This document shows positions 2,499-5,172 of a stretch of DNA of 25,514 nt, one piece after another. Numbering within the stretch: the first letter of the stretch is position 1; each line of letters begins with the position of its first letter. This DNA comes from a virus. The notes beneath the pieces were generated by a model. That model did no database searches and was not told where the DNA came from. It saw only the letters and a program-made list of their open reading frames with translations. The stretch is taken from positions 1 through 25,514 of IMG/VR virus record IMGVR_UViG_3300035661_000308; one strand, 5' to 3'. A program made the position numbers and the translations under genes.

Positions 2499-3082
2499 GC
2501 TGCTTCCTTTGTAGTGAGTTGTAATTTTCTTGCCGTAGCTACTGCGCGTAATTTTGAAAGCTGTTCTTCTGTCGCATTGGCCTTAACAGAAGCCTTTAAT
2601 AACTTGGCTATTTCTTCCACGTTTTCAGCATCGGTAATTTGCGTTTGCATATCAACAAACTGACTCTGTGAAAACTTATTTTCGGGTTGTGGCTTCACTG
2701 CCTCTGTGCCATCGTCATCTGCTTGATAAAGCCCTGTAATCGCTGCCAGTGCATATCTTCGGGAATAGGTCGCTGCGCTGCCATAACCCTGTGCATCGTT
2801 CTTTTGTAGTGGCATTGTTAGCTCATCTTCTAGCCATTCGCCCGACTCATGCATCAAGCGAGTAGTTAGGTTTAACTTTCCCGATTCACTCGGTGAGAAT
2901 GACTGTATAAATACAATACCGTTCGCGTTTAATGCAGGTTTAACCGCATCAATCACCGATTCAAGGTTGGCGTATGTATTCTTAAAATGTGGGTTCGTAG
3001 CGTCTTTGGCTGCGAATGTGATCGCCTGTTGCGCCTTGAGTAGCGCTGGTGCTAACTTGCTTATTTCTAGTGAGGTTTTCAT
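2495..3082 (-). CDS. erf: ERF-family single-strand annealing recombinase
   Basis: A 195-residue protein with the hallmarks of the ERF superfamily (P22 Erf-like): LAPALLKAQQAI, NPHFKNTYANLESVIDAVKPAL, the GI-x-F-Q segment, and the diagnostic QGYGSAATYSRRYALAAITGLYQADDDG block around residues 100-125. The family anneals complementary single strands and promotes circularisation or RecA-independent recombination. The start at 3082 has an AGGA ribosome-binding site 9-10 nt upstream. The 100-bp overlap with the preceding small gene is unusual but both starts have credible ribosome-binding sites. Confidence 0.92.
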   Translation of the reverse strand: MKTSLEISKLAPALLKAQQAITFAAKDATNPHFKNTYANLESVIDAVKPALNANGIVFIQSFSPSESGKLNLTTRLMHESGEWLEDELTMPLQKNDAQGYGSAATYSRRYALAAITGLYQADDDGTEAVKPQPENKFSQSQFVDMQTQITDAENVEEIAKLLKASVKANATEEQLSKLRAVATARKLQLTTKEAA

Positions 3083-3307: not shown

Positions 3308-3504
3308 TTCTGCACCATCGCAAAGCCGGTCATATACTCGCCACGCTTCGCTAGGTCATATAAAACCTTGTCCTTCGCGGTTTTCTTTTGTTGTGCTACA
3401 CGAACGCGATACGCCTCATTTGCTGCGTGTTCTTTTTCTTCCATGTATCCGTTTAATGCACAGAGAGCGAGAAATGCAGCTATTCCAATGATCCAGAATT
3501 TCAC
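3304..3504 (-). CDS. Small single-pass membrane protein (66 aa, GTG start)
   Basis: The GTG at 3504 is chosen because it overlaps the stop of the upstream gene (GTGA) and has a GGAG site 7-10 nt upstream. An ATG six codons earlier would lie inside the neighbour. The N-terminus is a hydrophobic helix (KFWIIGIAAFLALCALNGYM) that should anchor it in the inner membrane. A basic, Lys-rich cytoplasmic helix follows. No holin or spanin motif is present. The role in early infection is unknown. Confidence 0.65.
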   Translation of the reverse strand: MKFWIIGIAAFLALCALNGYMEEKEHAANEAYRVRVAQQKKTAKDKVLYDLAKRGEYMTGFAMVQK

Positions 3505-3773
3505 GGTGTCATCTCCAAGCATTGCAGCTTAGAAATTGAATCTTCAACGCTGGCTATATCAAGATGGTATTGCTCTTTGATTGCCTCTTTCTTCGCATTA
3601 AGTATTTCAAGTTGACCAGCGGTCATGCTGAAATTTTCAGGTATTTCAAACTCAACATCTACCTCGCAAACCTGCACAGCGCCATCAACTTTCAAAGAGT
3701 AGATTGCAAACTCTGGCTTTGCCTGCCACGCGTATTGAGTCGCTTGTACAAAACATTTCATTGTGTGTTTCAT
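3501..3773 (-). CDS. Hypothetical protein (90 aa)
   Basis: A soluble protein with a beta-rich first half (CEVDVEFEIPENF) and a helical second half with coiled-coil tendency (LEILNAKKEAIKEQYHLDIASVEDSISKL). It starts behind a GGAG site and is the first gene downstream of the folded untranslated region at 3795-3981, so its translation may depend on that RNA. It overlaps the following membrane-protein gene by 4 bp. No family is recognised. Confidence 0.65.
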   Translation of the reverse strand: MKHTMKCFVQATQYAWQAKPEFAIYSLKVDGAVQVCEVDVEFEIPENFSMTAGQLEILNAKKEAIKEQYHLDIASVEDSISKLQCLEMTP

Positions 3774-3794
3774 TTCATCTCCAAGTTAAATTAA

Positions 3795-3981
3795 GTGGTG
3801 CCGTATTACTACGGAACGACAGAGAAACCCCCCCTGTCCTCACCACTGATAATCACTCTCTCGCTAAAGCTACGAATTGCGGGAAATATCAAAAACCGCT
3901 TGGAGCTAACCCAATTGAAAGCGATTATCAGTAGTTGCTCGTAACGTGAGCCATTCGGCGATGAAGGTCTAGGATCATCGC
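3795..3981 (-). ncRNA. Candidate structured RNA or 5' leader (multi-helix)
   Basis: There is no gene in this stretch. On the minus-strand transcript it forms successive helices: a 7-bp hairpin (3975-3981 with 3958-3964), a 4-bp hairpin (3948-3951 with 3937-3940), a 15-bp helix with two G-U pairs (3917-3931 with 3846-3860), then a possible three-way junction. The junction is closed by GTGGTG/CACCAC (3841-3846 with 3795-3800) and contains GACAG/CTGTC (3834-3838 with 3818-3822) and CCGTA/TACGG (3810-3814 with 3801-3805). The wobbles pair only on the minus strand, which is the coding sense here. No known RNA family is recognised. Confidence 0.45.
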
Positions 3982-3991
3982 GGTAGGTATA

Positions 3992-4837
3992 TCAAGCAGC
4001 CTTAACTTCTTCAATTGCAGGAGTCCACAACTCAGCATGCTTTCTAATTAAAACCAATGCAGCGCGGTACTCTTCGCCATGATTATTTGAACCATGCTCT
4101 GCATCTAGCGACAATTCAAATTCTTCAATCGATCCTGAAAAGCAACCTGCTTTTAATTGAATGCCATGGTCTGTAATGAATGCTTGAAGATAATCACTTC
4201 TTGATCCAATCGGGCTAAGTTGAAAATAAGGACGTTCGCCAATAAGTTTTTTACCGCCCAGATCAGCACAGTACAGATTGGCACCGCCCAGATCAGCACC
4301 GTACAGATTGGCACCGCCCAGATTGGCACCGTACAGATTGGCACCGCCCAGATTGGCACCGTACAGATTGGCACCGCCCAGATCAGCACAGTACAGATTG
4401 GCACCGCCCAGATCAGCACCGTACAGATTGGCACCGCCCAGATCAGCACCGCCCAGATCGGCACCGCCCAGATTGGCACCGCGCAGATTAGCACCGTACA
4501 GATCGGCACCGCCCAGATTGGCACCGTACAGATTGGCACCACCAAGATCGGCACCGCCCAGATCGGCACCGCCCAGATTGGCACCGCCCAGATTGGCACC
4601 GCCCAGATCAGCACCGCGCAGATTGGCACCGCCCAGATTGGCACCGCCCAGATCAGCACCGCGCAGATTGGCACCGCCCAGATTGGCACAGTACAGATCG
4701 GCACCTCCCAGATCGGCACCGCGCAGATTGGCACCTGCTTTCAATGCCATCAGCAAAGTAATCTTCAGTGAGTTTTCCTCTACATCATGCGAGAACAAAA
4801 CTGAATTTGTGTAGTGATTTTTTATTTCAATTATCAT
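3992..4837 (-). CDS. Pentapeptide-repeat protein (281 aa)
   Basis: Residues 1-35 form a short N-terminal region (MIIEIKNHYTNSVLFSHDVE). Residues 36-200 are about 33 tandem pentapeptides A(N/D)L(G/R/Y)(G/C), with Leu at the central position in every unit, expected to fold into a right-handed quadrilateral beta helix. Residues 201-281 are a C-terminal domain (FQLSPIGSRSDYLQAF...) also seen on other phage pentapeptide proteins. Some family members mimic DNA and bind gyrase, but most are uncharacterised. The repeats are almost identical at DNA level, implying recent expansion. A GGAAAAG site precedes the ATG. Confidence 0.9.
   Translation of the reverse strand: MIIEIKNHYTNSVLFSHDVEENSLKITLLMALKAGANLRGADLGGADLYCANLGGANLRGADLGGANLGGANLRGADLGGANLGGANLGGADLGGADLGGANLYGANLGGADLYGANLRGANLGGADLGGADLGGANLYGADLGGANLYCADLGGANLYGANLGGANLYGANLGGANLYGADLGGANLYCADLGGKKLIGERPYFQLSPIGSRSDYLQAFITDHGIQLKAGCFSGSIEEFELSLDAEHGSNNHGEEYRAALVLIRKHAELWTPAIEEVKAA
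4238..4732 (-). repeat. 15-bp tandem repeat array encoding the pentapeptides
   Basis: About 33 copies of a 15-bp unit, on the plus strand GCCCAGATYRGCACC with a GTACAG or GCGCAG variant. From about 4256 to 4450 the unit alternates between GCCCAG and GTACAG, giving a higher-order 30-bp period. Copies differ at only a few positions, and because the period is a multiple of three, several other frames stay open by chance. Confidence 0.95.
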
Positions 4838-4854
4838 TTTCTTTTCCGGTTAAA

Positions 4855-5172
4855 TTAAGAAACCAAATCAACAAGATGCTTAGTCCAATAATCAACACTG
4901 GTTTTCTTTAAAAATTCCACCAATTTGTCGCCTTGATTTTGACGAACTAATTCAGCAAGTTTTGTTTCAAATGGAAATGCAACGTCCCGTGAAGCGCCCA
5001 TCGTTTCACCGATAGCCTCAGACATATTGTCGAATTGTCCCCAGTAGTAATCTGTTCTGAAATCATTTACCTTCGCTTCAATCTCTTTCTCTTTTGCATC
5101 TTGAGCAGCTTCTAACTGCTCTTTTTCGCAGTAATGCTTGGCGGTGTCAACTTCGACTTGGCAGTAGTTCAT
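4855..5172 (-). CDS. Hypothetical helical protein (105 aa)
   Basis: The start at 5172 is chosen because its ATG shares a base with the TAA of the KilA-N gene (TAATG) and an AGGGG site precedes it. An in-frame ATG 19 codons upstream would overlap the neighbour. The N-terminal half is a charged helix (EKEQLEAAQDAKEKEIEAKV), followed by a part rich in Trp, Tyr and Asp. It lies between the KilA-N and pentapeptide-repeat genes in the leftward operon. Function unknown. Confidence 0.7.
   Translation of the reverse strand: MNYCQVEVDTAKHYCEKEQLEAAQDAKEKEIEAKVNDFRTDYYWGQFDNMSEAIGETMGASRDVAFPFETKLAELVRQNQGDKLVEFLKKTSVDYWTKHLVDLVS

Follow-up and report, generated by a model that had tools for sequence, protein, structure and literature searches.

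The window, a complete IMG/VR virus record of 25,514 bases, holds a gap in a leftward operon in which a highly folded, untranslated RNA had been noticed from the sequence. Is this a real RNA, does it have relatives, and what might it do for the phage? The window genes include those for an Erf recombinase, an SSB, a CI-like repressor, NinB and a terminase, indicating a temperate-type tailed phage. The operon runs from a regulator-like gene through a 124-aa gene, the pentapeptide gene, the RNA, a 90-aa gene, a 72-aa gene and a 66-aa ORF to Erf and SSB. Between the end of the pentapeptide gene (3992) and the start of the 90-aa gene (3773), 218 nt contained no plausible gene, in line with the preliminary description. 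A scan of the 90-aa protein yielded nothing informative. The repeat leaves several frames of the pentapeptide region (4153–4814) open, on either strand (193, 183 and 178 aa). The motif CTTAATTTAAC or TTAATTTAAC recurred just 5′ of ribosome-binding sites in the window operon and its relatives (Table 1), perhaps as a common recombination boundary.

Folding of the window RNA

The minus strand of 3795–3981 folded at −68.7 kcal/mol (z −4.53), and none of 200 shuffled sequences folded as well. The strand had been assigned from G-U wobbles, and the plus strand indeed folded more weakly (z −2.08). A plus-strand RNA was rejected on the basis of this weaker fold and since the plus-strand model matches (17.9–21.8 bits) mirrored the same hairpins. 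The long helix described earlier was recovered, with 19 bp instead of 15 and three G-U pairs instead of two. This helix, P1, encloses three hairpins (P2, P3 and P4) and thus forms a four-way junction (Table 1). The proposed three-way junction closed by GUGGUG/CACCAC can form around two hairpins and ends 12 nt before GGAG (3779–3782), within the spacing given for it; however, it competes with P1, as its stem takes the same 3′ strand.

In the 175 nt compared among the three close homologues, nearly every frame was closed early or repeatedly, and one sense frame of L001 had a late stop only. With no conserved open frame, protein coding through the RNA was rejected, and the sequence was untranslated as proposed. 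Positions 3760–4010 had no match at the gathering score or at E ≤ 10 among 4227 Rfam models, which agrees with the earlier failure to recognise an RNA family. A tRNA or tmRNA identity was also rejected. On all three grounds named beforehand as tests (covariation, folding energy relative to shuffled sequence, and coding), the outcome favoured the proposed folded RNA.

Table 1. Positions of the RNA, its parts and adjoining features (window numbering unless a locus is named).
Feature	Position	Strand	Basis or remark
Pentapeptide-repeat gene, upstream of RNA	3992–4837	−	other gene there in L001, none in L004
5′ hairpin GCUC-[ACGUUAC]-GAGC	3937–3951	−	found in window, L001, L004
Core, four-way junction, part common to the whole family	3842–3935	−	R2 match 3850–3928, R3 match 3847–3931, fold
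P1 5′ strand (19 bp)	3917–3935	−	fold; 8/8 modelled P1 pairs covary in family
P2 hairpin UUGG-[GUUAGCU]-CCAA	3900–3914	−	UUAGC, first conserved family loop
P3 hairpin GCGG...CCGC	3879–3899	−	variable within family
P4 hairpin UCGU-[AGCUUUA]-GCGA	3861–3875	−	GCUUUA, second conserved family loop
P1 3′ strand	3842–3860	−	fold
Alternative outer stem GUGGUG (3841–3846)/CACCAC (3795–3800)	3795–3846	−	sequence; consistent with L001, L004
3′ hairpin GACAG...CUGUC	3818–3838	−	window type only; L004 without one pair
3′ hairpin CCGUA-[GUAA]-UACGG, GNRA loop	3801–3814	−	GCAA loop in L001 and L004
90-aa gene, downstream of RNA, phrog_2479 (function unknown)	3501–3773	−	GGAG at 3779–3782
CTTAATTTAAC/TTAATTTAAC copies, window	~3786–3796, ~4852–4862	−	
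CTTAATTTAAC/TTAATTTAAC copy, L001	9–21	−	
CTTAATTTAAC/TTAATTTAAC copy, L009	about 3058–3068	+	

Close homologues

Two close homologues were found, L001 with a long-helix pattern and L004 with a paired-helix pattern; the other three new matches to the latter, L003, L005 and L006, were unrelated on inspection. The element was 97.7% (L001) and 89.4% (L004) identical to the window at the nucleotide level, and the genes of the window and L004 were 78.4% (Erf), 72.8% (SSB), 62.5% (124-aa gene) and 53.4% (72-aa gene) identical. Upstream of the RNA, the pentapeptide gene of the window gives way to a gene of the gp49/66 family in L001, and in L004 the 124-aa homologue itself adjoins the RNA. Downstream, L004 carried a different gene in place of the 90-aa gene, and a leader tied to the 90-aa gene was rejected on this basis. 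Thus the RNA persists where the genes around it are exchanged. Because the three sequences are so similar, they showed no both-sided changes, and the hairpins at 3937–3951 and 3801–3838 therefore rest on folding energy and one-sided consistent changes. A further hairpin (3959–3982) was present in the window and in neither homologue.

Covariance searches reveal an RNA family

A covariance model of the three window-type sequences (R1) gave nine matches in 86 sources, mostly Erf-homologue loci, among them L067 (E 0.033) and L060 (E 3.2). L067 was the first sense-strand match beyond the window-type sequences. Its element, which lies in the leader of a Cro-like gene, has a nine-bp P1, the P2 loop UUUAGCU, P3 and the P4 loop UGCUUUAU. 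A pattern common to the window and L067 matched 28 viral contigs, of which 25 were members; L097 was a chance match, and L094 and L100 were judged by eye to be chance. A second model (R2), built from 12 members with no window-type sequence, scored L067 and L060 as strong members (69.2 and 54.7 bits) and found the window at 27.7 bits (E 2.6e-5; unfiltered E 4.2e-6). With a relaxed pattern, at least 120 contigs were obtained. Strong R2 matches were present in 74 of 77 new loci and then in 38 of 38 further ones; the three of these 115 newly fetched loci with no strong match were L179, L182 and L196. A third model (R3) was built from 80 R2 matches, three of them weak and not counted as members, again excluding window-type sequences. 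In 719 kb searched, it scored the window at 25.8 bits (E 1.5e-4), and no non-member exceeded 11.6 bits. Six R2/R3 members (L055, L056, L060, L067, L044 and L048) came from Erf loci fetched without any RNA motif. When the window was aligned to R3, all modelled pairs were standard and P1 enclosed P2, P3 and P4 in the family order. The window loops GUUAGCU and AGCUUUA agree with those of the family, the search patterns having been drawn from the window and L067.

The family comprised 123 distinct cores in 72 clusters at 80% identity, after removal of six rows (L115, L097, L148:12728, L179, L157:1087 and L235:9339); L048, a later member, lies outside all counts. The counts given below for upstream hairpins, terminator density, int-alpA RNA and co-directional ORFs refer not to the 123 distinct cores but to 130 rows analysed out of 132 cores, in which the ends on the minus strand were one base too short. 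Two copies per phage were found in three (G002, G018 and G019) of the 26 complete records that contained a match. The window RNA is a real RNA, one of more than 100 relatives in uncultivated phages, and the window copy is a diverged, promoterless, elaborated and operon-internal member.

An Rfam search of nine and of ten member loci gave no match on the element. Against phage and plasmid records, blastn of the window and family members returned chance-level pieces or none, and genome scans with stringent patterns found no member, a result that does not extend to prophages. The single match from these scans, in a Paenibacillus genome (L115), was attributed to chance (19.9 bits; no match at E ≤ 1e-3 in that genome). 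None of four annotated phages with related TerL or helicase genes (MW202674, MW202520, OR577172 and NC_007024) was matched by R3, and among the papers that came up in literature searches none was recognised as an earlier description of this RNA. A new RNA family of tailed phages, absent from Rfam, is well supported; we refer to it as the cloverleaf RNA.

Covariation and conserved loops

About 80 nt fold into the four-way junction, with the conserved loops UUAGC in P2 and GCUUUA in P4. In alignment A9 (78 distinct rows), 94.8% of the cells were paired versus 63.6% in shuffles, and in A10 (38 distinct rows) 97.5% versus 62.2%; because both alignments had been fitted to the model, they are biased towards the structure. 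On the same fitted alignments, the covariation score was 0.593 versus 0.131 shuffled (A9) and 0.685 versus 0.137 (A10), with none of 500 shuffles as high. Sliding the pairings lowered the paired cells to 31–49%. Both-sided changes in A9 occurred at all eight pairs of P1, two of four in P2, four of four in P3 and two of three in P4. P3 was the weakest helix and variable in length (80% paired in A9 and 88% in A10). P1 ranged from 6 to 20 bp across the family and was shown to be kept by pairing, not by sequence, which indicates selection for RNA function. The invariance of the loops is partly due to construction, since both search patterns contain TTAGC and GCTTTA, and the same holds for P3 in the narrower pattern, which included it. 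Variants were still seen (UGCUUCAU, UGCUACAU and UGCUUGAU, as well as AGCUUUAG in the window).

Promoter position and transcription units

A −10-like hexamer ended 5–7 nt before P1 in 52 of the 123 cores and in 28 of the 72 cluster representatives, compared with nine of 123 at the control distance of 25–27 nt and three of 122 at 45–47 nt. Thirteen of these 52 cores also had a perfect TTGACA 16–18 nt further upstream. With the usual sigma-70 geometry, a −10 box at this distance places the transcription start at P1, so the transcript would begin there. In many cases the RNA seems to be synthesised ahead of everything else in a newly activated phage operon. The −10 box is frequent in the family but was not made part of its definition. 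Same-strand intrinsic terminators occurred at 0.62 per kb just upstream of the element versus 0.10 per kb just downstream. The element therefore tends to open transcription units, and the rarity of downstream terminators led us to reject a free-standing sRNA with its own terminator. Many of the members with no −10 box were intergenic, and many followed a second conserved hairpin (see below); the window copy, in the middle of its operon, had neither a −10 box at P1 nor this hairpin upstream.

Neighbouring genes and orthologous junctions

A co-directional ORF with a Shine-Dalgarno sequence started within −30 to +60 nt of the P1 end in 50 of 119 usable members, compared with 86 of 595 random places; divergent starts were found in two of 119. 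The 73 downstream genes scored among the 109 members then known fell into 29 clusters and included genes for Cro-like proteins, a minor head protein (phrog_13900), terminase subunits, glutaredoxin, acyl carrier protein and unknown proteins. Upstream genes included those for SNF2-type helicase, TerS, TerL, HNH and Toprim proteins. With such varied neighbours, a leader dedicated to a single downstream gene is unlikely; the core is a family member found before unrelated genes, not a leader private to the window operon. Directly 3′ of the element, a tRNA gene was present in L215 (4487–4558, minus strand) and L228 (4299–4370, minus strand).

At orthologous junctions with and without the module, the gap lengths differed by approximately the length of the module itself. 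The gap between the helicase and minor head genes was 129–190 nt with the element and 74–91 nt without it (L132, L148, L151 and L193), and that between terS and terL was 67–86 nt with it and −10 to 21 nt without it (L191, L217, L218 and L227). In this comparison, the membership of L203–L240 was taken from the R2 search; neither L205, L206, L208, L213, L220, L222, L226 and L230 nor the duplicates L244, L245, L254 and L256 were taken as absences. G002 carried one copy at the leader of a Cro-like gene and another across the terS stop and terL start. The terS/terL copy of L125 held the terS stop and a possible terL start in its loops.

A second hairpin and chained elements

Directly upstream of many promoterless members lay a second hairpin, ACACGCAUGG(A/G)GAUUG...CAGUC(C/U)(C/U)CAGCCGUGU, whose 3′ strand CGUGUUGG doubles as the 5′ strand of P1. 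A regular expression run over the loci collected found 36 occurrences, 19 of them adjacent upstream of a member. Examples were L197, L189, L143, L211, L204, L215 and L235, and more than one copy was present in L143, L146, L168 and L219. In L235, the variant AACAAGUAUGAGGAUUG...CAGUCCUCAUUCUUGUUGG had matching changes in both strands and was repeated as an array. Strand sharing also occurs at the other end of the window RNA, as the P1 3′ strand can pair with CACCAC. One rather unlikely extension would make the RNA a portable operon signal: a tRNA-like four-way junction, transcribed first and starting at +1, would capture the transcription apparatus of the host in cis. In some phages it would form a chain with other modules having mutually exclusive helices, so that folding is handed over along the chain as the RNA emerges. 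In L145 (1800–2330), L162 (3600–4100) and L238 (1390–1890; all oriented coordinates), the second copy of the element lies between a small unit with a promoter-like and a terminator-like sequence, on its 5′ side, and a long stretch of noncoding appearance, on its 3′ side.

Possible mode of action

The function and mechanism of the RNA are proposed with less confidence than the family itself. Its placement in cis, its co-direction with genes, its start at +1 or between genes, its unrelated neighbours and its presence in different operons of a single phage fit a general transcript signal and suggest that the cloverleaf RNA is a portable control signal on phage messages. Tentatively, with somewhat less than an even chance, we take it to be a portable leader or intercistronic RNA that would act in cis on the transcript carrying it. 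The fold may be made compact by contact between the P2 and P4 loops, AGC with GCU; covariation does not bear on this contact, because the search patterns required TTAGC and GCTTTA. As the least certain step, the RNA could act on the polymerase transcribing it or on the elongation factors of that enzyme. The nascent RNA would then let transcription of the operon pass pauses and terminators, as do HK022 put and the Bacillus EAR, both unrelated to it.

The put RNA is known for binding the beta′ zinc-binding domain and for readthrough of terminators in cis, and the eps-associated RNA (EAR) of Bacillus, intercistronic in a long operon, promotes readthrough as well. In the published account, putL of HK022 lies just 3′ of its early promoter and acts as nascent RNA on polymerase, and the put RNA, of about 70 nt with two stem-loops, needs no dedicated phage protein and occurs in two copies per genome (PMC9378689). 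The cloverleaf RNA resembles put in that account as a phage RNA that would act in cis, in many members just 3′ of a predicted promoter and in some genomes in two copies, and that may likewise need no dedicated protein; unlike the two adjacent stem-loops of put, it is a four-way junction with other loops. R2 and R3 gave no match on the HK022 record, and identity with put was rejected by fold and by this model search. EAR likewise is an intercistronic RNA inside a long operon, but its structure, host and genes are different. The C4 antisense RNA of P1/P7 is a branched phage RNA with exposed loops, but it regulates one gene in antisense. The EAR and C4 models are presumably part of the Rfam library, in which the window RNA had no match at E ≤ 10.

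Taken with the behaviour of HK022 putL, the features of a general transcript signal led us to rank action on the elongating polymerase highest, itself a cautious choice, ahead of protection or processing of mRNA. Several observations go against a put-like action. Downstream intrinsic terminators were not in excess, though a put-like element might be expected to serve them; the window copy lies mid-operon with no promoter at P1; and the second copies in L162, L145 and L238 lie, as judged by eye, just after a terminator-like hairpin and T run.

An unlikely but next-best explanation is that the compact 5′-terminal or intercistronic fold shields the message from host ribonucleases, or presents it to them, so that downstream expression is raised or separated. 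The predicted start of the RNA at +1 with a base-paired first nucleotide (the 52 cores above), the copies between genes in operons and the 19-bp helix of the window would suit such a role. A P1 of 6 to 20 bp fits a ruler-type ribonuclease poorly, an RNase P-type ruler being rejected on this account, and simple shielding would not need two conserved loops. It is less probable again that the cloverleaf is a building block of larger, trans-acting structural RNAs, with the leader as its simplest form. The adjacent second hairpins (19 of 36 occurrences), the hairpin arrays in L235, the long stretches of noncoding appearance that follow second copies (L145, L162 and L238) and the tRNA genes adjoining the L215 and L228 members would accord with it, but co-directional genes start just 3′ of the element far more often than at random, one member overlaps the terS stop and terL start, and a downstream terminator of its own is absent. 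A leader controlling initiation at the next start codon through binding of a small molecule or phage protein is slightly more doubtful still: P1 ends about 11–40 nt before many start codons, and the L125 loops hold the terS stop and possible terL start, but the window core ends 68 nt from the start codon of the next gene, and no single ligand or autoregulator fits downstream genes as unrelated as these (29 clusters among 73). A selfish or recombination element spreading as a short module between intergenic sites, as presence and absence at orthologous junctions might suggest, is very improbable given the P1 pairing kept despite sequence divergence and the co-direction with genes.

This covarying family occurs in more than 100 phage contigs, has no match in Rfam and gave none beyond chance when phage and plasmid records were searched with blastn, which suggests that environmental phages have a regulatory layer not described before, within the reach of our searches. 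If the cloverleaf RNA acts on RNA polymerase, it would join a very small number of RNAs known to need no protein for this; its simple form of promoter plus RNA makes this directly testable in vitro. Should the put-like reading be true, the mode of action would vary on a known kind, while the RNA family itself is new.

Other RNA features in related phages

An int-alpA RNA (RF02996) was seen in some of the same phages, approximately 230–240 nt downstream of the element and after the Cro-like gene (L090 734–802 and L104 6277–6346, both minus strand). It is a separate element with its own fold, containing CUAG, GAAAAG and CCUG. Int-alpA-like sequence lay downstream of four of 130 members and on the opposite strand of none, and the RF02996 model gave no match in the window's own record. 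At the place of the window RNA, a phage with an Erf 65% identical (L009) had a 350-nt gene-free stretch with long inverted repeats (2680–3050, plus strand), the fold of which reached a z of only −1.2 and which matched no Rfam family above the gathering score. At the orthologous helicase/minor-head junction of Xanthomonas phage Xp15 (L266, about 4430–4545), a −10-like TACAAT preceded a long hairpin of a different kind, perhaps a leader RNA with an analogous role.
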